Of a stretch of DNA of 64,000 nucleotides, positions 42,308 through 62,073 are shown one piece after another. Each line of letters begins with the position of its first letter. Positions within the stretch are counted from its first letter, which is position 1. Under the pieces are notes generated by a model. That model saw nothing but the letters and a program-made list of their open reading frames with translations. It searched no databases and was not told where the DNA came from. The stretch lies in assembly GCF_035975855.1 (NCBI RefSeq), contig NZ_CP109055.1, positions 4,464,001-4,528,000 of the forward strand, written 5' to 3'. The position numbers and the translations under genes are program-made. This DNA comes from Streptomyces sp. NBC_01304. GTDB taxonomy: Bacteria; Actinomycetota; Actinomycetes; Streptomycetales; Streptomycetaceae.

Positions 42308-42319
42308 CTACGCGCGTAG
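42308..42319. promoter_or_regulatory. Palindromic operator candidate for purine nucleoside phosphorylase
   Basis: The perfect 12-mer CTACGCGCGTAG occurs 12 bp before a TACGCT -10-like hexamer (42332-42337), which itself sits 7 bp before the GTG start at 42345. The same 12-mer is at 47410 and 62062 before other nucleoside-catabolism genes. Confidence 0.72.
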
Positions 42320-42344
42320 GCCCGAACCGGCTACGCTCATGCGC

Positions 42345-43166
42345 GTGAACGCAATTACTCCCGTCATCGCCGAGAGCGACCCCCACGCCGCCGCCGACGC
42401 GGCCGCCGCCCGCCTTCGCGAGCTGACCGGCGCCGAGACCCACGACGTCGCCCTGGTGATGGGCTCGGGTTGGGCCCCGGCCGCCGAAGCACTCGGCGCC
42501 CCCGAGGCCGAGTTCCCCGTCACCGAGCTGCCCGGCTTCCCGCCGCCGGCCGTCGAGGGACACGGCGGCAAGATCCGCTCGTACAAGATCGGTGAGAAGC
42601 GCGCCCTGGTCTTCCTCGGCCGCACCCACTACTACGAGGGCCGCGGTGTCGCCGCCGTCGCGCACGGCGTACGGACCGCCGTCGCCGCCGGCTGCAAGAC
42701 CATCGTCCTCACCAACGGCTGCGGCGGTCTGCGCGAGGGCATGCGCCCCGGTCAGCCGGTGCTGATCAGCGACCACCTCAACCTGACCGCGACCTCCCCG
42801 ATCATCGGGGCGAACTTCGTGGACCTCACCGACCTGTACTCGCCGCGGCTGCGTGCGCTGTGCAAGGAGGTCGACGAGACGCTGGAAGAGGGCGTGTACG
42901 TCCAGCTGCCCGGCCCGCACTACGAGACTCCGGCCGAGATCAACATGATCCGGGTCATGGGCGGCGACCTGGTCGGCATGTCGACCGTGCTCGAGGCGAT
43001 CGCCGCGCGTGAGGCGGGGGCCGAGGTGCTCGGGATCTCGCTCGTCACGAATCTGGCCGCGGGCATGACCGGTGAGCCGCTCAACCACGAGGAAGTCCTG
43101 CAGGCCGGGCGGGACTCCGCCACTCGTATGGGTGCGCTGCTGCAGCAGGTGCTGGGGCGGATCTGA
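42345..43166 (+). CDS. Purine nucleoside phosphorylase
   Basis: The enzyme splits purine (deoxy)nucleosides with phosphate into base and (deoxy)ribose 1-phosphate. The 273 residues follow the trimeric PNP/MTAP family: [96 protein letters not shown] and [12 protein letters not shown] 42345 is preferred because TACGCT lies 7 bp upstream, which suggests a leaderless mRNA; ATG 42339 is the alternative. It is followed by the phosphosugar mutase gene. Confidence 0.94.
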
Positions 43167-43221
43167 GCCTGGCTTTGGGGGTGGGGCCGGGCCTGCTGAG
43201 GTCGCGGGGCTGCGCCCCGGG

Positions 43222-43265
43222 CCCCCATCGGCCTTCGGCCTCGTCCTCAAACGCCGGACGGGCTG
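43222..43265. repeat. Half copy of the nested palindrome family (copy D)
   Basis: Only the left inner arm is present (GTCCTCAAACGCCGGACGGG followed by CTGG). A small GGGGCTGCGCCCC hairpin lies just before it. The missing right half means that no long stem can form. It lies between the nucleoside phosphorylase and the mutase. Confidence 0.75.
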
Positions 43266-43349
43266 GAGAGATGCGGACCGGCTGATGGGGCGGGCACCCG
43301 CCGAGTGGGTGCGTACCCGCTGAAAGACGTACACGAGAGGCGACTTGAC

Positions 43350-44978
43350 GTGCAGCACGACGAACTGATCGAGCGGGCCCGGACCTGGCTCGCCGAGGAC
43401 CCCGACGCGGAGACTCGTGAGGAGCTGGCCAAGCTCATCGACGCCGAGGACGTCGCTGAGCTGGCGGCGCGGTTCAGCGGGACCCTGCAGTTCGGGACCG
43501 CCGGGCTGCGCGGGGAGCTCGGGGCCGGGCCGATGCGGATGAACCGGTCGGTCGTCATCCGGGCCGCAGCGGGGCTCGCCGCCTATCTCAAGGCGCAGGG
43601 GCAGGACGGCGGCCTTGTCGTCATCGGGTACGACGCGCGCCACAAGTCCGCCGACTTCGCCCGGGACACCGCGGCCGTGATGACCGGCGCCGGGCTGCGT
43701 GCCGCCGTGCTGCCGCGGCCGCTGCCCACGCCCGTGCTCGCCTTCGCCATAAGGCATCTGGGCGCGGTCGCGGGTGTCGAGGTCACGGCGAGCCACAACC
43801 CGCCCCGGGACAACGGCTACAAGGTGTACCTCGGCGACGGCTCGCAGATCGTGCCGCCCGCGGATGCGGAGATCGCCGCCGAGATCGACGCGGTGGCCGC
43901 ACTCGCCGACGTACCGCGTCCGGAGAGTGGCTGGGAGACGCTGGGCGAGGAGGTCCTGGGGGCCTATCTGGCGCGTACCGACGCCGTTCTCTCCGCCGGG
44001 TCGCCGCGCAGCGCCCGGGTCGTCTACACGCCCATGCACGGCGTCGGCAAGGACACCCTGCTCGCCGCCTTCGCGCGGGCCGGGTTCCCCGCGCCGGTGG
44101 TCGTCGCCGAACAGGCCGAGCCCGACCCGGACTTCCCGACGGTCGCCTTCCCCAACCCGGAGGAGCCGGGCGCGATGGACCTCGCGTTCGCCACGGCCGA
44201 GCGGGAGCAGCCGGACCTGATCATCGCCAACGACCCGGACGCGGACCGCTGCGCCGTGGCCGTGCGCGACGGCGGGGCCTGGCGCATGCTGCACGGCGAC
44301 CAGCTCGGCTCGCTGCTTGCCGCGCACCTGGTCAAGCGGGGCGTCACCGGCACCTTCGCCGAGTCGATCGTGTCGTCGTCGTTGCTCGGACGGATCGCGG
44401 CCGCGGCCGGGCTCGGCTACGAGGAGACGCTGACCGGCTTCAAGTGGATCGCCCGCGTGGACGGTCTGCGGTACGGGTACGAGGAGGCTCTCGGGTACTG
44501 CGTCGACCCCGAGGGCGTACGCGACAAGGACGGCATCACGGCGGCGCTGCTGGTCGCCGAGCTCGCGTCCGAGCTGAAGGAGGCGGGGCGTACGCTCCTC
44601 GACCTCCTCGACGACCTGGCGGTCGAGCACGGGTTGCACGCGACCGATCAGCTGTCCGTACGGGTCGAGGACCTTTCGGTGATCGCCGACGCGATGCGCA
44701 AGCTGCGCTCCGCTCCCCCGGTCTCGCTCGCGGGGCTCGCGGTGACGTCGACGGAGGACCTTTCGCAGGGTTCCGCCGCGCTCCCGCCCACCGACGGTCT
44801 GCGCTACACGCTGGACGGGGCGCGGGTGATCGTGCGGCCCAGCGGGACCGAGCCGAAGCTCAAGTGCTATCTGGAGGTCGTGGTTCCGGTCGAGGGTGAT
44901 CTGCCTGCGGCCCGGGCCAGGGCTACGGAGCTGCTGGCCGCGATCAAGCGGGATCTGGCGGAGGCTGCGGGGATCTGA
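43350..44978 (+). CDS. Phosphosugar mutase (phosphopentomutase/phosphomannomutase family)
   Basis: An alpha-D-phosphohexomutase-fold enzyme of 542 residues. The phosphoserine loop is GVEVTASHNPPRDNGYKVYLGDG. The metal loop is IIANDPDADRCAVAV, the sugar loop is GYEEALGYCVDPEGVRDKDG, and the phosphate-binding tail is VRPSGTEPKLKCYLEV. Standing next to purine nucleoside phosphorylase, it probably moves phosphate from position 1 to 5 of (deoxy)ribose, feeding DeoC, but a phosphomannomutase role is possible. GTG 43350 has GAGAGG 9 bp upstream. Confidence 0.9.
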   Translation: MQHDELIERARTWLAEDPDAETREELAKLIDAEDVAELAARFSGTLQFGTAGLRGELGAGPMRMNRSVVIRAAAGLAAYLKAQGQDGGLVVIGYDARHKSADFARDTAAVMTGAGLRAAVLPRPLPTPVLAFAIRHLGAVAGVEVTASHNPPRDNGYKVYLGDGSQIVPPADAEIAAEIDAVAALADVPRPESGWETLGEEVLGAYLARTDAVLSAGSPRSARVVYTPMHGVGKDTLLAAFARAGFPAPVVVAEQAEPDPDFPTVAFPNPEEPGAMDLAFATAEREQPDLIIANDPDADRCAVAVRDGGAWRMLHGDQLGSLLAAHLVKRGVTGTFAESIVSSSLLGRIAAAAGLGYEETLTGFKWIARVDGLRYGYEEALGYCVDPEGVRDKDGITAALLVAELASELKEAGRTLLDLLDDLAVEHGLHATDQLSVRVEDLSVIADAMRKLRSAPPVSLAGLAVTSTEDLSQGSAALPPTDGLRYTLDGARVIVRPSGTEPKLKCYLEVVVPVEGDLPAARARATELLAAIKRDLAEAAGI

Positions 44979-44993
44979 GGGCGGGCGGGCTGG

Positions 44994-45044
44994 TGCGGGT
45001 TCGTTGCGCCTGCGGGTTCGTTGCGCGCGCGGGTTCGTTGCGCC
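44994..45044. repeat. Three tandem 17-bp repeats
   Basis: Units TGCGGGTTCGTTGCGCC, TGCGGGTTCGTTGCGCG and CGCGGGTTCGTTGCGCC lie end to end from 44994, starting 15 bp after the mutase stop. Confidence 0.9.
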
Positions 45045-45061
45045 TGCGGCGGGCCGGTCCC

Positions 45062-45178
45062 CTACCCGCCCCTTCCCGTAAGGCTGCCGCCGGCTTCAAA
45101 AGACTGTCCTCAAGCGCCGGACGGGCTGATTCATGGCTGATGAATCAGCCCGTCCGGCGTTTGAGGTTGAGCCCCCTA
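45062..45178. repeat. Nested palindrome repeat, copy E
   Basis: A 27-bp inner stem with one mismatch spans 45106-45166 and contains the ATTCAT/ATGAAT extension seen in copies F and H. The left outer arm (CCTACCCGCCCCTTCCCG) remains but the right outer arm is lost. It lies between two genes on the same strand. Confidence 0.85.
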
Positions 45179-45281
45179 ACGGGTGATTTACCGGCGGCAG
45201 TTGACCCAGGGACCGGGGCGCGCCCCCCTCCACCACGGAAGGTGGACCGGAAGCGCACCCGAGCCCCCAGGAGCCCCACCC

Positions 45282-46469
45282 GTGTCCGCGACCACCGAGG
45301 CCACCAGCCGCGACCGGGTTGTGCCCGCATCGCGGCGACCCCAGGACACCCGCTGCCCGGCCGCCCGGCTGCCCGGGCTGCGCCATGCCGCGCCCGCACT
45401 GCTCGGCTATCTCGCCGTACGCATCACCGGTATCGCCCTGCTCGCCCAGTGGGCGCACGCACAGGGCCACGGGGTCTGGCCGATCCTCGCCTCCGACTGG
45501 GACGCCAACTGGTACCTGGGCATCGCCGACAGCGGCTACACCCATGAGCTGGGCACCGAGTACGACACCAACAACCTGGCCTTCTTCCCGCTCTACCCCG
45601 TCCTGGTCAAGGCCGTGGCGGCCTTCACCCCGGGGTCGCGGGCGAGCGTCGGCGTCGTCATCGCCGTCGTCTGCTCGCTGGTCGCCGCCTGGGGGATCTT
45701 CGCGGTCGGCGACCGGCTGTACGGGCGCCGCGTGGGCGTCGTCCTCGCCGTGCTCTGGGGAGCGCTGCCGGTCGGGCTCGTGCAGTGGATGGGCTACACC
45801 GAGTCCCTGTTCACCGCGGTCGCCGCCTGGTCCCTGTACGCGGTCCTCACCGGCCGCTGGCTGTGGGCGGGTTCGCTGGCCGCGGCCTCCGGGCTGACCC
45901 GGCCGACCGGGATCGCGCTGGCCGCCGCGGTCGTGCTGGCCGCGCTGCTCTCGCTGCGCTCCGGCTTCTCATGGCGGGCGCTCGCGGGGGCGCTGCTCGC
46001 TCCGCTCGGGTGGCTGCTCTACATCGGGTGGGTGGGGCTGCGGCTGGGCCGCTGGGACGGGTACTTCGAGGTCCAGAAGCTGTGGCACAACCAGATCGAC
46101 GGCGGAGTGGTGACGCTGCGCATGATGCGCAGCATCTTCTTCTACGACTCCACCCCGGAGCTGTTCCTCGCGATGGTGTCCCTGACCCTGATCGGGTCGG
46201 CCCTGCTGTTCGTGTGGTGCGTGCGGGCGCGGCAGCCGCTGCCGTTGCTGGTGTTCACAGGGCTGTTGCTGGTGATCGTGCTGGGCAGTGGCGGGGTGTA
46301 CTTCCCGCGGGCCCGGTTCCTGCTGCCGGGCTTCCCGCTGCTGCTGCCGGTGGCGGTGCTCATCGCGCGGGCGACTCGCCGCCGGGCGCTGGCCGCGTTG
46401 GGCGGGGCTGTGCTGGTCTCGGCGTACTGCAGCGCGTACATGGTGCTGGTTTGGCCCAGCGCGCCTTGA
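45282..46469 (+). CDS. PIG-V-like membrane mannosyltransferase candidate
   Basis: A polytopic membrane protein of 395 residues with about nine helices. The acidic first loop ILASDWDANWYLGIADSGY and the following LAFFPLYPVLVKAV match the actinobacterial mannosyltransferase group related to PIG-V (GT-C fold). LTRPTGIALAAAVVLA and RARFLLPGFPLLLPVAVLIAR are also typical. It probably adds mannose from polyprenyl-phosphate-mannose outside the membrane. GTG 45282 has AGGAG 8 bp upstream. The gene stands alone between two repeat copies. Confidence 0.85.
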   Translation: MSATTEATSRDRVVPASRRPQDTRCPAARLPGLRHAAPALLGYLAVRITGIALLAQWAHAQGHGVWPILASDWDANWYLGIADSGYTHELGTEYDTNNLAFFPLYPVLVKAVAAFTPGSRASVGVVIAVVCSLVAAWGIFAVGDRLYGRRVGVVLAVLWGALPVGLVQWMGYTESLFTAVAAWSLYAVLTGRWLWAGSLAAASGLTRPTGIALAAAVVLAALLSLRSGFSWRALAGALLAPLGWLLYIGWVGLRLGRWDGYFEVQKLWHNQIDGGVVTLRMMRSIFFYDSTPELFLAMVSLTLIGSALLFVWCVRARQPLPLLVFTGLLLVIVLGSGGVYFPRARFLLPGFPLLLPVAVLIARATRRRALAALGGAVLVSAYCSAYMVLVWPSAP

Positions 46470-46480
46470 TTTTCTCCGGT

Positions 46481-46610
46481 GTCCTCAAACGCCGGACGGG
46501 CTGATTCATCGGCCATGAATCAGCCCGTCCGGCGTTTGAGGACAAGGTGGGGTCCGGGGGCGCAGCCCCCAGCCTCCGGAGGATTTCGGGAAGGGGCGGG
46601 GTGGGGAAAG
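46481..46610. repeat. Nested palindrome repeat, copy F
   Basis: The inner arms at 46481-46509 and 46515-46543 are 29 bp and perfect with a 5-nt loop. The left outer arm is absent. The right outer arm GGGAAGGGGCGGGGTGGGGA is present after an added GGGGGCGCAGCCCCC hairpin. It separates convergent genes. Confidence 0.9.
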
Positions 46611-46614
46611 AAAC

Positions 46615-47319
46615 TCAGCCGACCACCAACAGCACGGCCAACAGAACCGCCCCAGCAACACACGGCGCAATGACCTCATAGGTCCACCGCACCACCACAG
46701 ACCCCTGCGCCTCGGGCCGCTTCTCGTTCATCTCCTGCAACTCCCGCAGATCCGCCAGCGCCTGATCCGAAGGCGCCCGCACGGGCCCCTCCGGCGCGGC
46801 GGCCGGCACCCGCAGGTGCGGATCCGAGACCTCCCGCCGCGACGGCCGCCCCGTCCCACGCGCCGCCTTCTTGCGGGCGCGCAGCGACACCGGAATGGCC
46901 CACATCTGGTACTTCTGCCCCTCGGCCACGACCTCGCTGGAGTAGGCGGCGGTCAGCGACTCCACGGTCGCCCACGGCATCGTGATGGTCCGGAAGGGGT
47001 TGCGGACGCGCAGCCGGGTCTCATTCGCGTACACGGCTGGCCGCAGCGTGAACGCCACCACCAGCGGCACCGCGAGCAGCAGCCCCGCGAGCGCCAGCCA
47101 CGGTGTGCGGCCCTCGCCCCGGATCACCGCGTCGCCGCCGAGCCACAGCGCGAGGGCGAGGAGGAGCACGCCTCCGGTCATGGCGGCACCCGACCGGAAG
47201 GCATGGTCGGCGTAGGCCTGCTCGGAGGCCGCGGCCTTGGCGCCGGACGCCTTGGGGTCCTGTGGGTCCCCGCTCGGGTCCTCCGCGCTGCCGGAGGGCT
47301 GGGAGTCGCTGCTCGTCAT
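46615..47319 (-). CDS. Membrane protein with bacterial PH-like domain
   Basis: The 234 residues start with a Ser/Asp/Gly-rich cytoplasmic tail. Two helices (TGGVLLLALALWLGGDAV; ALAGLLLAVPLVVAFTL) and a bacterial PH (YdbT-type) segment follow: VYANETRLRVRNPFRTITMPWATVESLTAAYSSEVVAEGQKYQMWAIPVSLRARKKAARG. A last C-terminal helix (CVAGAVLLAVLLVVG) ends the protein. ATG 47319 precedes the acidic tail. The role is unknown; it is divergent from deoC across 115 bp. Confidence 0.85.
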   Translation of the reverse strand: MTSSDSQPSGSAEDPSGDPQDPKASGAKAAASEQAYADHAFRSGAAMTGGVLLLALALWLGGDAVIRGEGRTPWLALAGLLLAVPLVVAFTLRPAVYANETRLRVRNPFRTITMPWATVESLTAAYSSEVVAEGQKYQMWAIPVSLRARKKAARGTGRPSRREVSDPHLRVPAAAPEGPVRAPSDQALADLRELQEMNEKRPEAQGSVVVRWTYEVIAPCVAGAVLLAVLLVVG

Positions 47320-47409
47320 AACGCCGATTCTGCCTGACGCGCACAAGCGGTCGAACCCGAGAGCCCGTCTGAGGAGGTTCCGGCCCGATAACGCACCCTT
47401 GCCCAGCCG

Positions 47410-47421
47410 CTACGCGCGTAG
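47410..47421. promoter_or_regulatory. Palindromic operator candidate before deoC
   Basis: The perfect 12-mer CTACGCGCGTAG abuts a -10-like TATGCT (47423-47428), and the GTG start follows 6 bp later. This is the layout expected of a repressor site overlapping a leaderless promoter. Confidence 0.75.
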
Positions 47422-47434
47422 ATATGCTCCCCTC

Positions 47435-48391
47435 GTGACCATGCCCTCCACAGCACACGCTGCATACGACGACGTAACGGCGTCCGACAGCTCGCTGCGC
47501 CGCTTCCTGCACGGCCTGCCCGGCGTCGACGCGGTCGGACTCGAAGCGCGTGCCGCCTCGCTCGGCACCCGTTCGATCAAGACCACGGCCAAGGCGTACG
47601 CCATCGACCTGGCCATCTCGATGATCGACCTGACGACGCTGGAAGGCGCGGACACCCCGGGCAAGGTCCGGGCTCTGGGCGCCAAGGCCGTCCATCCCGA
47701 TCCGACCGACCGGACGACGCCGAAGACCGCCGCGGTCTGCGTCTATCCGGACATGGTGGCGACCGCCAAGGAGGCCGTCGCCGGTTCCGGCGTGAAGGTC
47801 GCCTCGGTCGCCACCGCCTTCCCGGCCGGCCGCGCCGCGCTCGACGTGAAGCTCGCCGACGTGCGGGACGCGGTCGCCGCGGGGGCCGACGAGATCGACA
47901 TGGTCATCGACCGCGGGGCGTTCCTCGCGGGCAAGTACCTCAAGGTGTACGACGAGATCCGCGCCGTGAAGGAGGCGAGCGGCAGCGCTCGGCTCAAGGT
48001 CATCTTCGAGACCGGCGAACTCTCGACGTACGACAACATCCGGCGTGCCAGCTGGATGGGCATGATGGCCGGTGCCGACTTCATCAAGACGTCGACCGGC
48101 AAGGTCGGCGTCAACGCCACTCCCGCGAACACCCTTTTGATGCTGGAGGCCGTCCGCGACTTCCGCGCCCAGACCGGGGTACAGATCGGTGTGAAGCCCG
48201 CCGGCGGGATCCGTACCACCAAGGACGCCGTGAAGTTCCTGGTGCTCGTGAACGAGACCGCGGGCGCGGACTGGCTGGACAACCACTGGTTCCGCTTCGG
48301 CGCCTCGAGCCTGCTCAACGACCTGCTGATGCAGCGTCAGAAGCTGACCACGGGACGCTACTCCGGCCCTGACTACGTGACGGTGGACTGA
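47435..48391 (+). CDS. deoC: Deoxyribose-phosphate aldolase
   Basis: The enzyme splits 2-deoxyribose 5-phosphate to glyceraldehyde 3-phosphate and acetaldehyde. The 318 residues include AVCVYPDMVATAKEAV, ATAFPAGRAALDVKLADV, GADEIDMVIDRGAFLAG, KVIFETGEL, the Schiff-base lysine region GADFIKTSTGKVGVNAT, and IGVKPAGGIRTTKDAVKF. GTG 47435 lies 6 bp after a TATGCT hexamer, so the mRNA is probably leaderless. It leads a three-gene operon with aldehyde dehydrogenase genes that could consume the acetaldehyde. Confidence 0.96.
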   Translation: MTMPSTAHAAYDDVTASDSSLRRFLHGLPGVDAVGLEARAASLGTRSIKTTAKAYAIDLAISMIDLTTLEGADTPGKVRALGAKAVHPDPTDRTTPKTAAVCVYPDMVATAKEAVAGSGVKVASVATAFPAGRAALDVKLADVRDAVAAGADEIDMVIDRGAFLAGKYLKVYDEIRAVKEASGSARLKVIFETGELSTYDNIRRASWMGMMAGADFIKTSTGKVGVNATPANTLLMLEAVRDFRAQTGVQIGVKPAGGIRTTKDAVKFLVLVNETAGADWLDNHWFRFGASSLLNDLLMQRQKLTTGRYSGPDYVTVD

Positions 48392-48396
48392 CGATC

Positions 48397-49836
48397 ATGA
48401 CCACTAACCCCTTTGAGTACGCACCGGCTCCCGAGTCGCGTTCCGTCGTCGACATCGCGCCGAGCTACGGCCTGTTCATCGACGGAGAGTTCGTGGAAGC
48501 GGCGGACGGGAAGGTCTTCAAGACCGTCTCCCCCGCCACCGAGGAGGTCCTGTCCGAGGTCGCCCAAGCGGGCGCCGAGGACGTCGAGCGCGCCGTGCAG
48601 GCGGCGCGCAAGGCCTTCGCGAAGTGGTCCGCACTGCCGGGCGCCGAGCGCGCCAAGTACCTGTTCCGGATCGCCCGGATCATCCAGGAGCGCAGCCGCG
48701 AGCTGGCCGTCCTGGAGACCCTGGACAACGGAAAGCCGATCAAGGAGACCCGCGACGCGGACCTCCCGCTGGTCGCCGCGCACTTCTTCTACTACGCGGG
48801 CTGGGCCGACAAGCTCGACCACGCGGGGTACGGCGCGAACCCGCGTCCGCTGGGCGTGGCCGGGCAGGTCATCCCGTGGAACTTCCCGCTGCTCATGCTG
48901 GCGTGGAAGATCGCCCCGGCGCTCGCGACCGGTAACACGGTCGTCCTGAAGCCCGCCGAGACGACCCCGCTCTCCGCGCTCTTCTTCGCCGACATCTGCC
49001 GCCAGGCCGGCCTGCCGAAGGGTGTCGTCAACATCCTTCCCGGGTACGGCGACGCGGGCGCGGCCCTGGTCGAGCACCCGGACGTCAACAAGGTCGCCTT
49101 CACCGGCTCGACCGCCGTGGGCAAGGCGATCGCGCGCTCGGTGGCGGGCACCGACAAGAAGGTCACCCTGGAGCTGGGCGGCAAGGGCGCCAACATCGTC
49201 TTCGACGACGCCCCGATCGACCAGGCCGTGGAAGGCATCGTCACCGGCATCTTCTTCAACCAGGGCCAGGTCTGCTGTGCGGGCTCCCGTCTCCTCGTAC
49301 AGGAGTCGGTGCAGGAGGAAGTACTGGACGCGCTGAAGCGCCGCCTGAGCACCCTGCGCCTGGGCGACCCGCTCGACAAGAACACCGACATCGGCGCGAT
49401 CAACTCCGCCGAGCAGCTCGCCCGCATCACCGCGCTCACCGAGCAGGGCGAGGCGGAGGGCGCCGAGCGCTGGTCGGCGCCGTGCGAACTGCCCGGCTCC
49501 GGCTACTGGTTCGCGCCGACCCTCTTCACCGGCGTCACGCAGGCGCACACCATCGCGCGGGACGAGATCTTCGGTCCGGTGCTTTCGGTGCTGACGTTCC
49601 GTACGCCGGACGAGGCCGTCGCCAAGGCCAACAACTCGCAGTACGGGCTGTCGGCCGGCATCTGGACCGAGAAGGGGTCGCGGATTCTCGCGGTCGCGAA
49701 CAAGCTCCGGGCCGGGGTCGTCTGGGCCAACACGTTCAACAAGTTCGACCCGACCTCGCCGTTCGGCGGCTACAAGGAGTCGGGCTTCGGCCGCGAGGGT
49801 GGCCGACACGGTCTGGAGGCCTACCTCGATGTCTGA
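48397..49836 (+). CDS. NAD(P)+-dependent aldehyde dehydrogenase
   Basis: A full-length ALDH of 479 residues. The catalytic Cys lies in FFNQGQVCCAGSRLLV (Cys293 or 294), and the general base is Glu259 in LELGGKGANIVFDDA. NAD-binding blocks GQVIPWNFPLLMLAWKIAPAL and FTGSTAVGKAI, and the C-terminal FGGYKESGFGREGG, are all present. The gene is 5 bp after deoC. The likely job is oxidising acetaldehyde from DeoC to acetate. Its stop overlaps the next gene by 8 bp. Confidence 0.94.
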   Translation: MTTNPFEYAPAPESRSVVDIAPSYGLFIDGEFVEAADGKVFKTVSPATEEVLSEVAQAGAEDVERAVQAARKAFAKWSALPGAERAKYLFRIARIIQERSRELAVLETLDNGKPIKETRDADLPLVAAHFFYYAGWADKLDHAGYGANPRPLGVAGQVIPWNFPLLMLAWKIAPALATGNTVVLKPAETTPLSALFFADICRQAGLPKGVVNILPGYGDAGAALVEHPDVNKVAFTGSTAVGKAIARSVAGTDKKVTLELGGKGANIVFDDAPIDQAVEGIVTGIFFNQGQVCCAGSRLLVQESVQEEVLDALKRRLSTLRLGDPLDKNTDIGAINSAEQLARITALTEQGEAEGAERWSAPCELPGSGYWFAPTLFTGVTQAHTIARDEIFGPVLSVLTFRTPDEAVAKANNSQYGLSAGIWTEKGSRILAVANKLRAGVVWANTFNKFDPTSPFGGYKESGFGREGGRHGLEAYLDV

Positions 49837-50728
49837 GAAGTCCGAGACGACGCGACTTAGTGTCTTCAAGACCTACAAGCTGTACGTCGGGGGCAAGTTC
49901 CCCCGCTCCGAGAGCGGCCGGGTGTACGAGGTGAGCGACTCGAAGGGCAAGTGGCTGGCCAACGCCCCGCTGGCGTCCCGCAAGGACGCCCGGGACGCCG
50001 TGGTCGCCGCGCGCAAGGCCTTCGGCGGCTGGGCGGGCGCGACCGCGTACAACCGCGGGCAGATCCTCTACCGCATCGCCGAGATGCTGGAGGGCCGCCG
50101 CGAGCAGTTCGTGCGCGAGGTCGGCGAGGCCGAGGGACTCAGCAAGTCGAAGGCCGCCGCCGTCGTGGACGCGGCGATCGACCGCTGGGTCTGGTACGCG
50201 GGCTGGACCGACAAGATCGGGCAGATCGTGGGCGGCGGGAACCCGGTCGCGGGCCCGTTCTTCAATCTCTCGACGCCCGAGCCGACCGGTGTGGTGACCG
50301 TGCTCGCCCCGCAGGAGTCGTCGTTCCTGGGTCTGGTGTCGGTGATCGCCCCGGTGATCGCGACCGGCAACACGGCGGTCGTCATCGCCTCCGCCGAGCG
50401 GCCCCTTCCGGCGCTCTCGCTGGGCGAGGTGCTTGCCACCTCCGACCTGCCGGGCGGCGTGGTCAACATCCTCACCGGCAAGACCGCGGAGATCGCGACG
50501 CCGCTCGCCGCGCACCAGGACGTCAACGCGATCGACCTCGCGGGCGCCGACGACGAGCTGGCCAAGGAGCTGGAGATCGCCGCCGCGGACAACCTGAAGC
50601 GTGTCTTCCGTCCACAGGCTGTGGACTGGGCCGCCGATCCGGGGACCGCCCGCCTGACGCCGTTCCTGGAGACCAAGACGGTGTGGCACCCGACGGGCTC
50701 GCTTGGCGCGTCCGGGTCTTCGTACTGA
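49829..50728 (+). CDS. Short ALDH-like protein lacking the catalytic domain
   Basis: These 299 residues match the first part of an aldehyde dehydrogenase: YKLYVGGKFPRSESGRVYEV, RKDARDAVVAARKAFGGW, RGQILYRIAEMLEGRREQF, PTGVVTVLAPQESSFLGLVSVIAPVIATGNTAVVIAS and GGVVNILTGKTAEIATPLAAHQDVNAIDLAG. The chain then leaves the fold without the Cys nucleophile or FGGYKxSG region. It resembles the second, non-catalytic half of ALDH16 proteins. The ATG lies inside the end of the catalytic gene, so the two are probably a subunit pair. Confidence 0.8.
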   Translation: MSEKSETTRLSVFKTYKLYVGGKFPRSESGRVYEVSDSKGKWLANAPLASRKDARDAVVAARKAFGGWAGATAYNRGQILYRIAEMLEGRREQFVREVGEAEGLSKSKAAAVVDAAIDRWVWYAGWTDKIGQIVGGGNPVAGPFFNLSTPEPTGVVTVLAPQESSFLGLVSVIAPVIATGNTAVVIASAERPLPALSLGEVLATSDLPGGVVNILTGKTAEIATPLAAHQDVNAIDLAGADDELAKELEIAAADNLKRVFRPQAVDWAADPGTARLTPFLETKTVWHPTGSLGASGSSY

Positions 50729-50863: not shown

Positions 50864-51604
50864 TCAGATGCCGAGGCGCTTGGCGATTCCGTCCAGTACG
50901 CAGTCCACGCCGAACTCGAACTCCCACGTGGGGTCGTCCTTGCGGGCGGCGGCCAGGGCGTACTGCCGGTAGACGGGGTAACGCCCCGTCGTCATCAGGT
51001 AGTTCATCTGCGGGGCCAGCGCCTGCCGGGCCTCGTCCCCGCTCTTCCAGCCGTGCAGCTCCTTGTACTCGCGCAGGGCGATCTCCGACTGCACGGCGCC
51101 CTGCACGAAGGAGCTGACGGAACGGAACGCCGCCATCATCGAGTCGGCGTCCAGGCCCCGGTCGACGAGCGCGGCCAACTGCCGCTCGGCCACCGCCATC
51201 CGGCTCGGCGTGAGCTGGATGACCGGCGCCGGCACATGCGCCATCCACGGGTGCCGCAACATCAACTCCCGGGTCTGCACGGCGAAGGAGCGCAGCACCT
51301 CGCGCCAGCCGGTGACGTCCTCGGACACGGTCAGCTCCGCCGAGACCCGGTCGATCATGAGGGCCCAGAGGTCGTCCTTGCCCGTGACATGGCGGTACGC
51401 GGCCATCGGCGCGACGCCCAGCTTCGTGGCCAGCCGCCGCATGGTGACGGCCCCCGCGCCCTCCTCGTCGGCGAGCTCGACGGCCGCGGCGGCGATCCGG
51501 TCCAGCGTCAGGGACGTGCGGGGCGCGGGCGCCGTGCGCTCCAGCCGTTCCCAGAGCGAGGGCTCCACGATCTTGCTCTCGCTCTCGTCCTTCTTGCCCG
51601 CCAT
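50864..51604 (-). CDS. TetR-family regulator (TetR_C class)
   Basis: The 246 residues have an N-terminal TetR helix-turn-helix (LTLDRIAAAAVELADEEGAGAVTMRRLATKLGVAPMAAYRHVTGKDDLWALMIDRV). A helical ligand-binding domain follows, with a TetR_C-like GRYPVYRQYALAAARKDDPTWEFEFGVDCVLDGI. Proteins with this C-terminal domain often control drug exporters. It diverges from the flavin reductase-MFS operon across a 113-bp gap full of GTAC-centred inverted repeats, which are its likely operators. Confidence 0.92.
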   Translation of the reverse strand: MAGKKDESESKIVEPSLWERLERTAPAPRTSLTLDRIAAAAVELADEEGAGAVTMRRLATKLGVAPMAAYRHVTGKDDLWALMIDRVSAELTVSEDVTGWREVLRSFAVQTRELMLRHPWMAHVPAPVIQLTPSRMAVAERQLAALVDRGLDADSMMAAFRSVSSFVQGAVQSEIALREYKELHGWKSGDEARQALAPQMNYLMTTGRYPVYRQYALAAARKDDPTWEFEFGVDCVLDGIAKRLGI

Positions 51605-55265: not shown

Positions 55266-55378
55266 TACTTTCCCCGTGTTCCCCCCGGAAGATCCCCCGT
55301 GATCCCCCGTACTTCCCCCGTGCTGCCGCCGCATCCCCCCGGAGCGGCGGGTCCCCGTTACCCCCTGCTTGCCGGTGC

Positions 55379-56128: not shown

Positions 56129-56221
56129 CTCGCGCCCCCCGTCGTGGAAGTCCGGCCGTGCTGTGTTGTTCCGTGTGAGCAAAAGCTTGCCCGGGGACTT
56201 TCATCGACCTGTCCGCCGACT

Positions 56222-56237
56222 GTCACAGCCCTGCAAC
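56222..56237. promoter_or_regulatory. AfsQ1 binding-site candidate
   Basis: GTCAC-AGCCCT-GCAAC fits the reported two-pentamer AfsQ1 box (GTnAC, six bases, GTnAC) with one mismatch in the second pentamer (GCAAC). It lies between the divergent sigQ and afsQ1 starts. Confidence 0.55.
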
Positions 56238-56330
56238 AGGCGAAGGTTGAATGTGGGAGTTGTAGGGGGAGATGTATGGGAGCGCTCCAACTGTCGAAAC
56301 CCGCCCGTGCCATGGGACAGAATGACCACC

Positions 56331-57008
56331 GTGCCTTCCCTGTTGCTGATCGAAGACGACGACGCCATCCGCACGGCCCTTGAGCTGTCGCTGACGCGCC
56401 AGGGGCATCGTGTGTCCACAGCCGCCACTGGCGAGGACGGTCTGAAGCTGTTGCGCGAGCAGCGGCCCGATCTGATCGTCCTCGACGTCATGCTGCCCGG
56501 CATCGACGGGTTCGAGGTGTGCCGGCGAATCCGGCGCACGGACCAGTTGCCGATCATCCTGCTGACCGCCCGCAGCGACGACATCGACGTGGTCGTCGGC
56601 CTGGAGTCGGGCGCGGACGACTACGTGGTGAAGCCGGTGCAGGGGCGGGTGCTCGACGCCCGCATCCGGGCCGTGCTCCGCCGTGGTGAGCGGGAGGCGA
56701 ACGACGCGGCGGTCTTCGGGTCGCTCGTCATCGACCGGTCCGCGATGACCGTGACCAAGGACGGGGAGGACCTGCAACTCACGCCGACCGAGCTGCGGTT
56801 GCTCCTCGAACTGTCACGGCGGCCCGGACAGGCCCTGTCCCGCCAGCAGTTGCTCCGTCTCGTCTGGGAGCACGACTATCTCGGGGACTCGCGTCTGGTG
56901 GACGCGTGTGTGCAGCGGCTGCGGGCGAAGGTGGAGGACGTACCGTCCTCGCCGACGCTGATCCGCACGGTGCGCGGGGTGGGCTACCGGCTGGACTCGC
57001 CTCAGTGA
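56331..57008 (+). CDS. afsQ1: Response regulator AfsQ1
   Basis: An OmpR-type regulator controlling antibiotic production and nitrogen responses. The receiver domain has LLLIEDDDAIRTALELSL with the acidic pocket, the phospho-acceptor Asp52 (LIVLDVMLPGIDGFEVC) and ILLTARSDD. Lys 102 (YVVKPVQGR) completes the site. The C-terminal winged helix (DLQLTPTELRLLLELSRRPGQALSRQQLL, SRLVDACVQRLRAKVE) binds DNA. GTG 56331 gives 225 residues and makes the acceptor Asp52, as I recall for S. coelicolor; ATG 56322 would add three residues. It overlaps afsQ2 by 4 bp. Confidence 0.96.
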   Translation: MPSLLLIEDDDAIRTALELSLTRQGHRVSTAATGEDGLKLLREQRPDLIVLDVMLPGIDGFEVCRRIRRTDQLPIILLTARSDDIDVVVGLESGADDYVVKPVQGRVLDARIRAVLRRGEREANDAAVFGSLVIDRSAMTVTKDGEDLQLTPTELRLLLELSRRPGQALSRQQLLRLVWEHDYLGDSRLVDACVQRLRAKVEDVPSSPTLIRTVRGVGYRLDSPQ

Positions 57009-58570
57009 CCTCTGCGAGATCGGGTACGTCGGCATCGAGTACGTCCACGCCCAGTACGTCCCGCAAGGTGTGGAGCAAGGCCGTCCTCGCCGGGCTGCGC
57101 TTCACCAGCCTGCGGCTGCGGCTCGTCGTCGTGTTCGGCCTGGTCGCCCTGACGGCCGCCGTCTCGGCCTCCGGCATCGCGTACTGGCTGAACCGCGAGG
57201 CCGTCCTGACGCGTACCCAGGACGCCGCGCTGAACGACTTCGGCCAGGCGATGGAGGACCACGCCGCCACCCTGCCGCCCGACCCGACCAAGGACGAGCT
57301 GGAGCGGGCCGCCCATGACATGGCCAACACCAGTCAGGGCTACAGCGTCCTGCTGATCGGCGAGAAGGCGGACGGCAAGCCCGTGTCCGGCAACTCCGAC
57401 CTGGATGTCTTCACGCCCGCCGACGTACCGAAATCCCTGCAGGAAGCGGTGAACAAGCCGCAGCGCGGCGGCTCCGGCGAGAACGACGAGTACCACCTGT
57501 TCTGGCAGCGCAAGGTCGAGCAGGGCGAGCCCTATCTGGTGGGCGGCGCCAAGGTGTCGGCCAACGGGCCGACCGGGTACATGCTCAAGTCGCTGGAGCC
57601 GGAGGCAAAGGACCTCAACTCCCTTGCCTGGTCCCTCGGGATCGCGACCGCGCTCGCCCTGGTGGGTGCCGCGCTGCTCGCGCAGGCCGCGGCGACGACC
57701 GTGCTCAAGCCGGTGCACCGGCTCGGGGTCGCGGCGCGCAGGCTCGGCGAGGGCAAGCTGGACACCCGGCTGAGGGTCTCCGGCACGGACGAACTGGCCG
57801 AGCTGGCACGGACGTTCAACTCCACGGCCGCGTCCCTGGAGAAGAAGGTCGCGGACATGAGCGCCCGCGAGGAGTCCAGCCGTCGCTTCGTGGCCGACAT
57901 GTCCCACGAGCTGCGTACGCCGCTGACCGCGATCACCGCCGTCACCGAGGTCCTTGAGGAAGAGGCCGACACCCTCGACCCGATGATCGCGCCCGCCGTG
58001 AATCTGGTGGTGAGCGAGACGCGCCGGCTCAACGACCTCGTCGAGAACCTGATGGAAGTCACCCGCTTCGACGCGGGCACCGCCAAGCTCGTCCTCGACT
58101 ACGTCGACATCGCCGACCAGATCACCGCCTGCATCGACACCCGCGCCTGGCTGGACGCCGTCGACCTGGACGCCGAGCGCGGCATCATGGTCCGCGTCGA
58201 TCCGCGCCGCCTGGACGTCATCCTGGCCAACCTGATCGGGAACGCGCTGAAGCACGGCGGCTCACCGGTGCGCGTCTCCGTGCGCAAGGAGGGCGAGGAC
58301 CTGGTGATCTCGGTACGCGACCACGGTCCGGGCATCCCCGAGGAGGTCCTGCCGCACGTCTTCGACCGCTTCTACAAGGCCAGCGCCTCGCGGCCGCGGT
58401 CCGAGGGCAGCGGGCTCGGGCTCTCCATCGCGCTGGAGAACGCGCACATCCACGGCGGCGAGATCACGGCCGCCAACTCCCCCGAGGGCGGCGCGGTGTT
58501 CACACTGCGGCTGCCGCGCGCGTACGACGACACAGTGGAGTCTGAGCAGGCCGAGGGAGACACGCTGTGA
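57005..58570 (+). CDS. afsQ2: Sensor histidine kinase AfsQ2
   Basis: A membrane sensor of 521 residues that phosphorylates AfsQ1. Helices at about 38-62 and 205-228 enclose an extracellular sensing domain. HAMP follows (VLKPVHRLGVAARRLGEGKLDTRL). The phospho-acceptor His301 is in FVADMSHELRTPLTAI. The N box is LANLIGNALKHGG, and the G boxes are RDHGPGIPEEVL and SEGSGLGLSIALENAHIHGG. The GTG start overlaps the afsQ1 stop (GTGA). Confidence 0.96.
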   Translation: MTSARSGTSASSTSTPSTSRKVWSKAVLAGLRFTSLRLRLVVVFGLVALTAAVSASGIAYWLNREAVLTRTQDAALNDFGQAMEDHAATLPPDPTKDELERAAHDMANTSQGYSVLLIGEKADGKPVSGNSDLDVFTPADVPKSLQEAVNKPQRGGSGENDEYHLFWQRKVEQGEPYLVGGAKVSANGPTGYMLKSLEPEAKDLNSLAWSLGIATALALVGAALLAQAAATTVLKPVHRLGVAARRLGEGKLDTRLRVSGTDELAELARTFNSTAASLEKKVADMSAREESSRRFVADMSHELRTPLTAITAVTEVLEEEADTLDPMIAPAVNLVVSETRRLNDLVENLMEVTRFDAGTAKLVLDYVDIADQITACIDTRAWLDAVDLDAERGIMVRVDPRRLDVILANLIGNALKHGGSPVRVSVRKEGEDLVISVRDHGPGIPEEVLPHVFDRFYKASASRPRSEGSGLGLSIALENAHIHGGEITAANSPEGGAVFTLRLPRAYDDTVESEQAEGDTL

Positions 58571-59172
58571 GCGTACGCAAGGGGCTGAGGGCCGCGTTGG
58601 CCCTCGGGCTCGGCCTGGCGGCGCTCGGCGCCTGCGGGATCCGGGCGACCGAGGTGCCGACCGACTTCGGGGCGGCGCCCTCGCGCGTGCCCTGCATCAC
58701 CTCCACGGCGAGCGTGGCGGCGCAGTCGGGGCGTGACGGCACTCCCACCCAGATCTTCCTGGTGTGCGGCTCCCAGCTGGTCCACGTGGACCGGACGGTG
58801 CAGCTGACGCCGGCCCAGGCCGGGAACCGCGTGAAGGTCGCCCAGTCACTCCTGGCCGAGCTGCGCGAGGAGCCGGCCGGTGCCGAGCAGAAGGCCGGGT
58901 TCACCTCCGACGTACAGGGCCGCACGGCGATCGACGGCCCCGGCAAGGACGACCCCCGCACGGCCCTGCGCCTGAGCGTGCCCCCGGAACAGCTGACCCC
59001 GTTCGCCCTGGCCCAGCTCGTCTGCACCCTCGGGAACAGCGTGGCGGGCACCGGCGAGGGAAAGGTGGTCCTCGGGGGGCCGGGCGAGGCGCCGCTGCGG
59101 CAGTACGCGTGCACGGAGGCGGTGCGACAGCGGCCCGGGTCTGCGCCGGCGCCCACGGAGCCGGTGGGCTGA
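58567..59172 (+). CDS. Lipoprotein co-transcribed with afsQ1-afsQ2
   Basis: This 201-residue protein has a lipobox (LALGLGLAALGACG, Cys23) and an outside domain (RVPCITSTASVAAQSG, QIFLVCGSQLVHVDRTV, ALRLSVPPEQLTPFALAQLVCTLGNS). Four Cys residues in the mature chain suggest two disulfides. The GTG start overlaps the afsQ2 stop. The position, as in S. coelicolor, makes it a likely accessory to AfsQ2 sensing, though this has not been shown. Confidence 0.87.
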   Translation: MSVRKGLRAALALGLGLAALGACGIRATEVPTDFGAAPSRVPCITSTASVAAQSGRDGTPTQIFLVCGSQLVHVDRTVQLTPAQAGNRVKVAQSLLAELREEPAGAEQKAGFTSDVQGRTAIDGPGKDDPRTALRLSVPPEQLTPFALAQLVCTLGNSVAGTGEGKVVLGGPGEAPLRQYACTEAVRQRPGSAPAPTEPVG

Positions 59173-59335
59173 GGAGGGGCGCGGGGCTGTATCGATATGC
59201 GGCTCCGCCGCGTGGGCGCGACCAGCCCCCACCGGCCCGCGGATGTCGTGCTCCGTACCCCCATGCGGAATCTGGGGCGGCAGCCCCAGGGGGACGCACG
59301 GAACCGATCCTGCCAGTCCTGTCGTCTTGGGGGAC

Positions 59336-59908
59336 GTGCAGCGTCCAGCATCAAGCGGCAGCGCCTCCGCAATGAGCGGCAGTGCCACCGCGATCCGCAT
59401 CCGCGCGGCGGGAATCGCCATCCTCGCCGTGCATCTTCTGCTCGTCGGCTGGTTCACGCTGCGGCCCATAGACGTGCCCTGGGTCAGCCCGGCCAATCTC
59501 CAGCCACTCGCCGCGATCAAGGCGGATCTGGCGCTCGGGGCCGGTGAGGCGTTCCGCCGGATCGGTTCGGGGCTGCTGCTGCTCGCACCGCTCGGGGTGC
59601 TGCTTCCGCTGGCCGGGGGCCGGCTGCTCGTGTCACCGCTGGCGTCGCTGGCGCGTACGGTCGCCGCGGGCGCGATGATCTCCCTCGCCATCGAGCTGCT
59701 GCAGACCGGGGTGCCCGGACAGGTCGTGGACGTGGACTCGCTGCTCCTGAACACCGTGGGGGTCGCGCTCGCGCATCTCGCCGTCGTACCCGCGGTGCGG
59801 GGCCGGCTACGCCGCCGTACGGAGGGCGGAGTCCTGTCCCCCCTCCCCCGGGACGAGGGATCTCAGGGGCCGACCCCGACGATTCCCAGGGTCGGTATCG
59901 CCCCGTAG
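59336..59908 (+). CDS. VanZ-family membrane protein
   Basis: The 190 residues contain four hydrophobic helices and the VanZ-type pattern AGIAILAVHLLLVGWFTLRPIDVPWVS ... NLQPLAAI ... RIGSGLLLLAPLGVLLPL ... SLAIELLQTGVPGQVVDVDSLLLNTVGVALAHL (family IExxQ-type and DxxDxxxNTxG-type elements). VanZ proteins are linked to teicoplanin tolerance, but most genomic copies have unknown roles. GTG 59336 gives the expected first helix. A short 5' spacer holds Streptomyces-type 3' repeat sequence (GCGGCTCCGCCGC). Confidence 0.87.
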   Translation: MQRPASSGSASAMSGSATAIRIRAAGIAILAVHLLLVGWFTLRPIDVPWVSPANLQPLAAIKADLALGAGEAFRRIGSGLLLLAPLGVLLPLAGGRLLVSPLASLARTVAAGAMISLAIELLQTGVPGQVVDVDSLLLNTVGVALAHLAVVPAVRGRLRRRTEGGVLSPLPRDEGSQGPTPTIPRVGIAP

Positions 59909-59999
59909 TCCGATGCTTCGACCCCCTTCGCGAACGTACCTTTGAAACATCGAAGGCAGCACACAGGCAGCCTCACCACGGTTCACGAAGGAGCCCACC

Positions 60000-60200
60000 A
60001 TGACCGCCCTTGCCCGCCCCCAGAACGGACGGATGATCGGCGGAGTTTGCGCAGCGCTCGCAAGGCGCTTCGGCACCTCCGCGACCACGATGCGCGTGAT
60101 CTTCCTCGTGTCCTGCCTGCTGCCCGGCCCCCAGTTCCTGCTCTACCTGGCGCTGTGGGCGCTGCTCCCGGCCGAGAAGAACGCCACCGCCGCCTGGTAG
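60000..60200 (+). CDS. PspC-domain membrane protein
   Basis: The 66 residues are almost exactly one PspC domain: PQNGRMIGGVCAALARRFGTSATTMRVIFLVSCLLPGPQFLLYLALWALLPAE. It includes the helix pair and the conserved GGVCAALA start. PspC proteins sense envelope stress through the phage-shock system. No other domain is present. The ATG has AAGGAG 8 bp upstream. It is transcribed alone. Confidence 0.93.
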   Translation: MTALARPQNGRMIGGVCAALARRFGTSATTMRVIFLVSCLLPGPQFLLYLALWALLPAEKNATAAW

Positions 60201-60236
60201 GCCCCGGAGCCGGACCGAGACACACCCCCATACGTA

Positions 60237-60275
60237 CGCAGAGGCCGACCGGCAACCGCCCGGTCGGCCTCTGCG
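60237..60275. terminator. Hairpin terminator after the PspC gene
   Basis: A perfect 16-bp stem (CGCAGAGGCCGACCGG with its complement) around a 7-nt loop lies 36 bp after the PspC stop and 30 bp before the end of a convergent gene. Confidence 0.88.
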
Positions 60276-60304
60276 CGTCCTGCCCGGAAGGGCAGCCGAG
60301 GGAG

Positions 60305-60706
60305 TCAGCTGAGGCCGACCGGCAGCCCGCCGCCCGCACCGCTGACCGGCAGCCCGCCCAGGTCCTGGCTGACCGGGAGCTCCTTGACCGGCAGGCCGCC
60401 GAGCAGGCCCTCGAGGGGGTTGCTGTCGGCGGGCAGCACCGCGGGGGCGGTCTGGTCGATGGTGGGCTTGGCGGTGCTGAGGCTGCTGGCGAGCGCGTTC
60501 TGCCCCGCGGACAGGGACTCCGCGCCACCCGCGGGCAGCGTCTTCGCGGCCTGCTCGACCGGCAGCGTGTCGGTCACCGAGCCGACCACCGCCGCGGCGT
60601 CCGGGACGGCGGGCACGGCGGGCACGGCCTGGGCAACGCCGGCACCTGCGACGGCGAATGCGGCGCCGAGCGCGGCGACACCGAGGGTCTTGGCAGACTG
60701 CTTCAT
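60305..60706 (-). CDS. Small secreted Val/Pro/Gly-rich protein
   Basis: The 133 residues start with a signal peptide (KTLGVAALGAAFAVAGAGVAQA). The mature chain is Ala/Val/Pro-rich and ends with repeated GLPV units (NPLEGLLGGLPVKELPVSQDLGGLPVSGAGGGLPVGLS). There is no Cys. Streptomyces has many such small exported proteins; the role is unknown. Its C-terminal style resembles the secreted protein at 53995 (both end in Leu/Pro/Gly). Confidence 0.75.
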   Translation of the reverse strand: MKQSAKTLGVAALGAAFAVAGAGVAQAVPAVPAVPDAAAVVGSVTDTLPVEQAAKTLPAGGAESLSAGQNALASSLSTAKPTIDQTAPAVLPADSNPLEGLLGGLPVKELPVSQDLGGLPVSGAGGGLPVGLS

Positions 60707-60833
60707 GGTGAATACGTCCTTGCGACGGGGTACTTGGCGTACTTGTGCGTACTTGGGGATCGACACGGAACTCGACGTTCTTGAGCGGTCCCGCAAGCTA
60801 GCCATGCTCAAGGCACACCCGCAAACAGCCGAA

Positions 60834-60863
60834 AAGGGCCGGGACCTTGTGGTCCCGGCCCTT
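60834..60863 (-). terminator. Hairpin terminator after add
   Basis: A perfect 13-bp stem (AAGGGCCGGGACC with its complement) and TTGT loop lies 15 bp beyond the adenosine deaminase stop. Confidence 0.88.
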
Positions 60864-60878
60864 CTCCCTGCGCTGCGA

Positions 60879-62045
60879 TCAGGCCTGTTCGGCCACAGAT
60901 CCGCTGGTCGAGGCGGTCTGCCGGAACAGCCATTCGGACTTCAGCTCGGCATAGCCGGGCTTGATCACGTCATTGATCATGGCAAGTCGTTCATCGAAAG
61001 GAATGAACGCTGATTTCATCGCATTGACTGTGAACCACTGCATGTCGTCGAGCGTGTACCCGAAGGTCGAGACCAGGTGCTCGAACTCGCGGCTCATGCT
61101 GGTGCCGCTCATCAGGCGGTTGTCGGTGTTGACCGTGGCCCGGAAGTGCAGCTTGCGGAGCAGGCCGATGGGGTGGTCGGCGTACGAGGTGGCCGCGCCC
61201 GTCTGCAGGTTGGACGTCGGGCACATCTCGAGCGGGATGCGCTTGTCGCGTACGTACGAAGCGAGGCGCCCCAGCTGCACCGAGCCGTCGTCCGACACCT
61301 TGATGTCGTCGATGATGCGCACGCCGTGGCCGAGCCGGTCGGCGCCGCACCACTGCAGGGCCTGCCAGATGGACGGCAGGCCGAAGGCCTCGCCGGCGTG
61401 GATGGTGAAGTGGTTGTTCTCGCGCTTCAGGTATTCGAAGGCGTCGAGGTGGCGGGTGGGAGGGAAGCCTGCCTCGGCACCCGCGATGTCGAAGCCGACG
61501 ACGCCCAAGTCGCGGTAGCGGTTGGCGAGTTCGGCGATCTCCAGGGCGCGGGCGGCGTGCCGCATCGCGGTCAGGAGAGCCCCCACGCGGATCCGGTGGC
61601 CGTTCGCCTTCGCGCGGCGCTCGCCCTCCCGGAACCCCTCGTTCACGGCCTCGACGACCTCTTCGAGGGTGAGGCCCGCTTCCAGGTGCTGCTCGGGCGC
61701 GTACCGGATCTCGGCGTACACGACGCCGTCCTCGGCAAGGTCCTCGGCGCACTCGGCGGCGACCCTCCGAAGCGCGTCCTTGGTCTGCATGACGGCGCAG
61801 GTGTGGGCGAAGGTCTCCAGGTAGCGGGGCAGCGACCCGGAGTCGGCGGCCTCGCGGAACCAGACGCCGAGCTTGTCCGCCTCGGTCTCGGGAAGGTTCT
61901 CGTAGCCCACCTCGCGGGCGAGCTCGATGATCGTGCCGGGGCGCAGGCCCCCGTCGAGGTGGTCGTGCAGGAGCACCTTGGGCGCCCGGCGGATCTGGTC
62001 CGGGCTCGCGGCAGGAGTGGTGTTGCTGTTGGTCTGGCTCGTCAT
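60879..62045 (-). CDS. add: Adenosine deaminase
   Basis: The enzyme converts (deoxy)adenosine to (deoxy)inosine, feeding the nucleoside phosphorylase. The 388 residues have zinc ligands in [15 protein letters not shown] (HxH), the catalytic Glu in TIHAGEAFG, the His in RLGHGVRI, and the Asp in [19 protein letters not shown]. Length and motifs are typical. The ATG at 62045 lies 6 bp after a -10-like TAGAGT, so the mRNA is probably leaderless. The CTACGCGCGTAG palindrome just upstream links it to deoC and purine nucleoside phosphorylase. Confidence 0.96.
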
Positions 62046-62061
62046 CTGCGCACTCTAGCGC

Positions 62062-62073
62062 CTACGCGCGTAG
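62062..62073. promoter_or_regulatory. Palindromic operator candidate before add
   Basis: The perfect 12-mer CTACGCGCGTAG is 4 bp from a -10-like TAGAGT (complement of 62052-62057), which is 6 bp from the add ATG. It is identical to the sites at 42308 and 47410. Confidence 0.75.

Follow-up and report, generated by a model that had tools for sequence, protein, structure and literature searches.

The 12-bp palindrome CTACGCGCGTAG, present three times in a 64-kb stretch of the genome of Streptomyces sp. NBC_01304 (contig NZ_CP109055.1, positions 4,464,001 to 4,528,000; hereafter the window, in whose coordinates positions are given), marks a regulon: the same site stands before functionally linked genes, is conserved in relatives and is rare elsewhere. 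Based on sequence comparison, we consider it probable that the palindrome is the operator of a conserved Streptomycetaceae regulon and is bound by a dimeric repressor, for which the DeoR-family product of the gene at 38994-39971 is the likeliest candidate. The exact copies in the window (42308-42319, 47410-47421 and 62062-62073) are identical and located where a preliminary description of this DNA had placed them, upstream of genes for purine nucleoside phosphorylase (pnp), deoxyribose-phosphate aldolase (deoC) and adenosine deaminase (add), and profile matches confirm the identities that it had assigned to these genes. The features central to this reading are as follows:

42308..42319, no strand: operator 1, CTACGCGCGTAG; -37 to -26 of pnp if the transcript is leaderless
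42332..42337, plus strand: -10-like TACGCT of pnp; TANNNT at the same spacing in 20/20 rows
42345..43166, plus strand: pnp, purine nucleoside phosphorylase, GTG start; Pfam PNP_UDP_1, NCBIfam TIGR01698 above cut-off
47410..47421, no strand: operator 2, between the -35 and -10 elements of deoC; exact match
47423..47428, plus strand: -10-like TATGCT of deoC; conserved geometry
47435..48391, plus strand: deoC, deoxyribose-phosphate aldolase; TIGR00126 above cut-off
62062..62073, no strand: operator 3, upstream of add, inside the divergent intergenic region shared with the gene at 62172
62052..62057, minus strand: -10-like TAGAGT of add; conserved geometry
60879..62045, minus strand: add, adenosine deaminase; NF006847 and TIGR01430 above cut-off
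38994..39971, minus strand: DeoR-family regulator, leading candidate repressor; Pfam DeoRC and HTH_DeoR

Such a concentration of exact copies is not expected by chance. The number of exact copies predicted by Markov models (orders 1-5, built from the window itself) is about 0.003 for 64 kb and 0.37-0.55 for the whole genome. If up to two mismatches are tolerated, the window contains six matches compared to 4.2 expected, and only the exact copies exceed the background. The complete genome (10.99 Mb) holds four exact copies versus two of the reversed control, and all four lie on one contig within 32.3 kb, which has a probability of about 1e-7 under uniform placement. The fourth copy (G000:C1:4538565), 12.5 kb past the window end, is positioned on the 5' side of minus-strand genes for an ABC ATPase, permease(s), cytidine deaminase (cdd) and pyrimidine nucleoside phosphorylase (deoA).

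This pattern extends to the whole family. The exact 12-mer occurs in 121 of 121 Streptomyces genomes, with 2-6 copies each in comparison to 0-3 for the reversed control, and in the Streptomycetaceae sample in 60 of 61 genomes and 16 of 17 genera. The sole family genome without an exact copy (G417) carries the one-mismatch form CTACGCGAGTAG before deoC and the two-mismatch form CTACGCGCGTTA before pnp. Among genomes of the class outside the family, 10 of 265 contain the exact 12-mer, with 12 copies in total, and for the nine copies examined (all except those of G208, G254 and G333) no encoded match to any reference protein was found at 1e-8. Of 15 genomes from elsewhere in the order, three have one copy each, and two of these copies lie inside an open reading frame that resembles guaB (IMP dehydrogenase). 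One genome outside the family (G191) has three exact copies (L061-L063) with no nucleoside gene found beside them; these are probably due to chance.

To assign targets, we accepted any reference gene whose start lies no more than 60 bp before or 420 bp after a site. In 20 Streptomyces genomes, chosen without regard to content, every exact copy was classified and all 75 precede a target gene: pnp (19), deoC (20), add (20), the ABC ATPase gene (12), a second adenosine deaminase, at about 62% identity (3), and a HAD phosphatase (1). In these genomes the 12-mer is conserved before the orthologous pnp, deoC, add and ABC ATPase genes of other Streptomyces, and with 75 out of 75 copies at target genes it does not turn up at unrelated sites at the rate expected by chance. 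A T/A extension on exactly one side is present in 78 of 79 exact copies, which share descent and therefore do not count as independent. A second set, of 51 loci from the family, was picked mainly for off-cluster copies or for genomes with few or many copies, and two of these loci (L055, L056) are also among the 75. Besides the core genes, this set includes the second adenosine deaminase (10), purN (7; identified by Pfam for one locus and by 71-76% identity to that one for the other six), the HAD phosphatase (2), a secreted 5'-nucleotidase (2), purS (1) and one copy before a secreted LTD/endonuclease-phosphatase protein.

The position of the palindrome within the promoters offers insights into how it may act. 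The preliminary description had pointed out -10-like hexamers between the palindrome and the start codon, and these are present as described: TACGCT follows the operator of pnp by 12 bp and precedes the GTG by 7 bp, TATGCT of deoC lies 1 bp past the operator and 6 bp before the GTG, and TAGAGT of add lies 4 bp past the operator and 6 bp before the ATG. We compared this geometry in all rows in which a gene of at least 72% identity has an exact site within 170 bp, including our own genome and dropping other loci, and found it conserved across Streptomyces. For pnp (site-N12-TANNNT-N6/7-GTG) the TANNNT position is kept in every row. For deoC (site-N1-TATGNT-N6-GTG) the hexamer position is kept in 21 of 21 rows, with TATGCT in 20, and for add (site-N4-TANNNT-N6-ATG) 20 of 21 rows have the hexamer at +4 and one at +3. 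In L273 and L274 the start codon was left unplaced by the script. An in-frame ATG at 42339, upstream of the pnp GTG, is missing from most rows. In Streptomyces avermitilis, -10 elements of the TANNNT type and a share of 22.2% leaderless mRNAs are described in the accessible part of one study (PMC8780764). Since the geometry is near-invariant and TANNNT lies 6-7 bp before the start codon, the data support the earlier proposal that the three window promoters look leaderless with the operator inside the core promoter; for the fourth operon a leader seems likely.

The palindrome overlaps the -35 region of pnp, occupies the -35/-10 spacer of deoC and ends 4 bp before the -10 element of add. In the gene for the second adenosine deaminase it falls within the first codons, directly behind an in-frame ATG (nine of ten loci by script, the tenth, L045, by eye; L036, L038, L039, L044, L045, L053, L055-L057 and L059). 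As its placement thus ranges from the -35 region into the first codons, the mode of action would be repression rather than activation. Repressors typically have operators at varying positions across the core promoter.

Sites with one mismatch require more caution. The own genome contains 18 further copies of this kind, and a single one proves nothing, because the reversed control is commoner at this tolerance (57 versus 22). Only three of them, before purS, an NCS2 permease gene and the gene for the secreted 5'-nucleotidase, are backed by other genomes. Upstream of purS, a one-mismatch copy is found within 360 bp in 75 of 80 loci and a copy with at most two mismatches in 79 of 80 (the best 80 of at least 525 confirmed stretches; these 80 are from Streptomyces or Streptacidiphilus), while 60 composition-matched control palindromes reach at most 2 of 80. 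Upstream of the NCS2 permease gene, 30 of 30 loci examined (from 41 genomes with a match) carry a one-mismatch copy within 300 bp, compared to at most 4 of 30 for the same control palindromes. Most copies at the permease gene deviate at one and the same side position (CTACGCGCGGAG or its complement), and this fixed position suggests graded affinity and not decay. The 5'-nucleotidase gene has a one-mismatch copy in the own genome and exact copies in two others (G326, G113). All other one-mismatch copies look like chance or stand on the own genome alone; examples are those at a PhoX gene and at a carbon-nitrogen hydrolase gene, the latter with N-carbamoylputrescine amidase as its best NCBIfam match, below cut-off.

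As one-mismatch copies recur before purS and the NCS2 permease gene, the predicted regulon is wider than nucleoside breakdown. The preliminary description had proposed a single regulator of nucleoside breakdown for the three window genes. The shared operator holds up and is family-wide, but the functional range was drawn too narrowly, as the targets also comprise the ABC importer, the NCS2 permease, purS, purN (in two other genera) and the secreted 5'-nucleotidase (in three genomes).

For the protein that reads the operator, we compared three regulators encoded in the window (DeoR at 38994, TetR at 50864 and LysR at 63090). The DeoR-family gene, previously suggested for its position only, is now the best candidate on strong circumstantial evidence, because of its phyletic pattern and its almost invariant DNA-binding domain, and would bind the palindrome. 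Scores of 53.7 bits for PF08220 (cut-off 21) and 169.7 bits for PF00455 (cut-off 31.8) place the protein in the DeoR family, and solved structures yielded a single sequence match at 0.001, to a deoxyribose operon repressor (7l6l, E 9.5e-8, residues 69-214). An orthologue exists in 61 of 61 family genomes; at E 1e-55 it is found in 45 of 45 Streptomyces genomes and in none of 15 others of the order, two of which are only 77-81% complete. For 39 genomes the gene is listed together with an exact site on one contig, which makes them a set selected by construction; the nearest site is at most 3.5 kb away in 28 of them and at most 25 kb away in all 39. The helix-turn-helix (HTH) domain has 58 of 60 positions invariant and 99.8% identity over 17 loci compared to 88.8% for residues 61-250. 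Restricted to the nine loci of other genera, the values are 99.6%, again with 58 of 60 positions invariant, versus 82.5% for the rest of the protein. The TetR gene was discarded, since none of the loci fetched from other genera contained a match to it.

The LysR-family gene adjoining add is very improbable as the source of the reader. It remains beside add in other family genera, and yet its HTH domain is about as variable (65.3%, with 28 of 61 positions invariant in 11 loci of other genera) as the rest of the protein (67.8%), while the operator is invariant and the DeoR HTH domain reaches 99.6%; on this divergence we judge it unlikely. Furthermore, the gene is oriented divergently to an MFS gene, as is usual for LysR regulators, and LysR sites are usually of the T-N11-A type, which we also count against it. 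Still harder to defend is the idea that the palindrome is a structural element of DNA or RNA or a chance repeat instead of an operator. In its favour, the palindrome is short and GC-rich, but all three window sites would lie upstream of the transcript if the promoters are leaderless, and all 75 classified copies are found at related genes, where chance predicts less than one copy per genome. More serious, although in our view rather unlikely, is the alternative that operator and regulon are real and that an unrelated regulator elsewhere in the genome reads the site, for example a member of another family sensing purine or ppGpp. The missing operator before the DeoR gene speaks for this possibility, and the targets purS, purN and NCS2 permease suggest a purine-sensing regulator. 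Against it stand the co-location of the DeoR gene, the fitting DeoRC sensor family, the matching phyletic pattern and the almost invariant HTH domain.

Several points weigh against the DeoR-family protein as repressor of a regulon defined by this operator. The comparison of candidate readers covered window regulators only. In line with the remark in the preliminary description, the DeoR gene lacks the operator: the best match within 200 bp upstream has 3-5 mismatches in ten loci, and four in the window. The protein also falls short of the E. coli-type DeoR equivalog (NF007961, 72.8 bits versus a cut-off of 244) and of the AgaR equivalog (NF040755, 187.3 versus 260), and CTACGCGCGTAG is unlike the E. 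coli DeoR operator. With at most one mismatch allowed, exact copies included, the own genome has fewer copies of the 12-mer than of the reversed control, and 14 of the 51 mostly off-cluster family loci have no recognised nucleotide gene. A purine-synthesis operon in a regulon induced by nucleoside breakdown would be odd unless the signal is PRPP-like (PRPP, phosphoribosyl pyrophosphate). Finally, we take SCO4920 to be the S. coelicolor orthologue of the DeoR gene. In the accessible text of a network study, SCO4920 is the centre of an inferred module enriched in sigma factors and not in nucleoside genes, with the consensus sequence unstated (PMC3224704); another source, likewise available in part, tabulates it among the regulators as a DeoR-family gene (PMC4848846).

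Autoregulation of the DeoR gene through this operator was rejected in view of these mismatches and of a different conserved promoter block at that place. The region upstream of the gene (window 39971-40221) carries this strongly conserved block of its own (TGAAAGCAGACGGTC ... GTTACTGTCAGTTTCGTG), and the gene may be leaderless too.

Taking the DeoR-family protein as the reader, a dimeric repressor would cover the core promoters of the ABC ATPase-permeases-cdd-deoA operon, pnp, deoC with the aldehyde dehydrogenase genes, and add. The one-mismatch copies, presumably bound more weakly, would bring the purSQL promoter and the NCS2 permease gene under the same repressor. Release would be triggered by a phosphorylated (deoxy)ribose compound, with deoxyribose-5-phosphate, ribose-5-phosphate or PRPP as candidates. 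Deoxyribose-5-phosphate would fit deoC, deoA and pnp; for purSQL, purN and the permease, PRPP or ribose phosphate would be the better match.

Among the neighbouring genes, three features complete the window:

48397..49836, plus strand: aldehyde dehydrogenase 3' of deoC; neighbourhood retained in other genera
49799..50728, plus strand: second aldehyde dehydrogenase-like gene, likely in the same operon as deoC
63090..64000, continuing to about 64112, minus strand: LysR-family gene adjoining add; unlikely reader of the operator

Beyond the window, a gene for a PnrA/Bmp lipoprotein lies just upstream of the fourth operon, and the two-mismatch form CTACGCGCGTTA is found at this gene in both genomes with an upstream region (the own genome and G411). 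The fourth operon looks leadered owing to an apparent ribosome-binding site. The apparent start of the ABC ATPase gene is a conserved AUC (L005:12433-12435, minus strand; G000:C1:4538433-4538435) behind a purine-rich ribosome-binding site (e.g. GGAGAGTGCGCC-ATC). TGCG(C/T)C-ATC is present at this start in 23 of 26 loci; L318 and L322 are alike in protein, and L120, from another genus, has ATG. Eight loci lack any in-frame ATG, GTG or TTG from the upstream stop to the domain.

The wider set of exact sites shows some further peculiarities. The operator near purN (glycinamide ribonucleotide formyltransferase) is exact in two other family genera (L082, L085, L086, L088, L089, L091, L094), and in six of these seven loci the conserved element GTCACCACGATAACGGCTGG lies beside it. 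Two genomes have a duplicated operator near deoC, with the copies 323 bp apart in L046 (2913, 3236) and 70 bp apart in L052 (2965, 3035). In one genus (L080, L081, L084, L087) an exact operator is found about 40 bp before a gene for a secreted He_PIG-domain protein with weak carbohydrate-binding or MAM-like matches. These He_PIG loci and the off-cluster sites L040, L041, L042, L047-L050, L090, L092 and L093 have no convincing target. L049 and L050 are the same copy near both chromosome ends of G068 as reverse complements, consistent with terminal inverted repeats.

Published expression data also count for a shared regulon. The fourth operon, with the ABC importer, presumably corresponds to the SCO488x genes of S. 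coelicolor. In Streptomyces lividans producing a heterologous cellulase, the orthologues of SCO4917 (purine nucleoside phosphorylase), SCO4914 (deoxyribose-phosphate aldolase) and SCO4901 (adenosine deaminase) rise jointly from 5 to 64, 7 to 69 and 11 to 49 transcripts per million, respectively (PMC6302529). In the accessible text of that study the authors do not link these three increases, and its expression table includes no SCO488x gene (PMC6302529). Our literature search, with few subscription papers within its reach and many sources available in part, returned neither a description of the motif nor a Streptomyces regulator named for pnp, deoC, add or purSQL. Full-text matching of the 12-mer turned up two papers, both unrelated, and one Streptomyces paper contains the 9-mer CTACGCGCG without the 12-mer (PMC4573997). 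A purine iModulon is mentioned in the available text of another study (PMC11538686).

The proposed system resembles several known ones without matching any of them. In common with E. coli DeoR/CytR, it would repress nucleoside uptake and catabolism through a DeoR-family protein with a sugar-phosphate sensor domain. In contrast to the E. coli system, the operator is a different one, adenosine deaminase, purS and the NCS2 permease are included, and three operators lie in leaderless-looking promoters. Bacillus subtilis PurR likewise combines control of purSQL, purine base permeases and nucleoside uptake, but is a phosphoribosyltransferase-like protein with a different box (PurBox), whereas here the candidate belongs to the DeoR family and nucleoside catabolism forms the core. 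S. coelicolor XdhR is a purine-salvage repressor in Streptomyces as well; it controls xanthine dehydrogenase and responds to ppGpp, and the text examined contains no target overlap (PMC6627660). NupR of Bacillus thuringiensis is a dedicated nucleoside-transport regulator too, but according to the accessible text belongs to the GntR/HutC family and to Bacillus (PMC9430930).

These comparisons open up the tentative idea that in Streptomycetaceae a DeoR-family protein may do the job of Bacillus PurR, as a single phosphoribosyl-sensing repressor, responsive to PRPP or a ribose/deoxyribose phosphate, that would link nucleic-acid scavenging, purine-base import and de novo purine synthesis via graded operators. 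The catabolic genes would carry perfect sites, purSQL and the NCS2 permease gene conserved sites with one mismatch, and the scavenging arm would consist of a secreted nuclease and 5'-nucleotidase in some species, followed by nucleoside import and breakdown. The 12-mer is near-invariant, its targets are fixed, a candidate protein has been named and a ligand class predicted, so that the question is readily testable. In addition, a compact operator that already sits inside apparently leaderless promoters would be useful for the engineering of actinomycetes.

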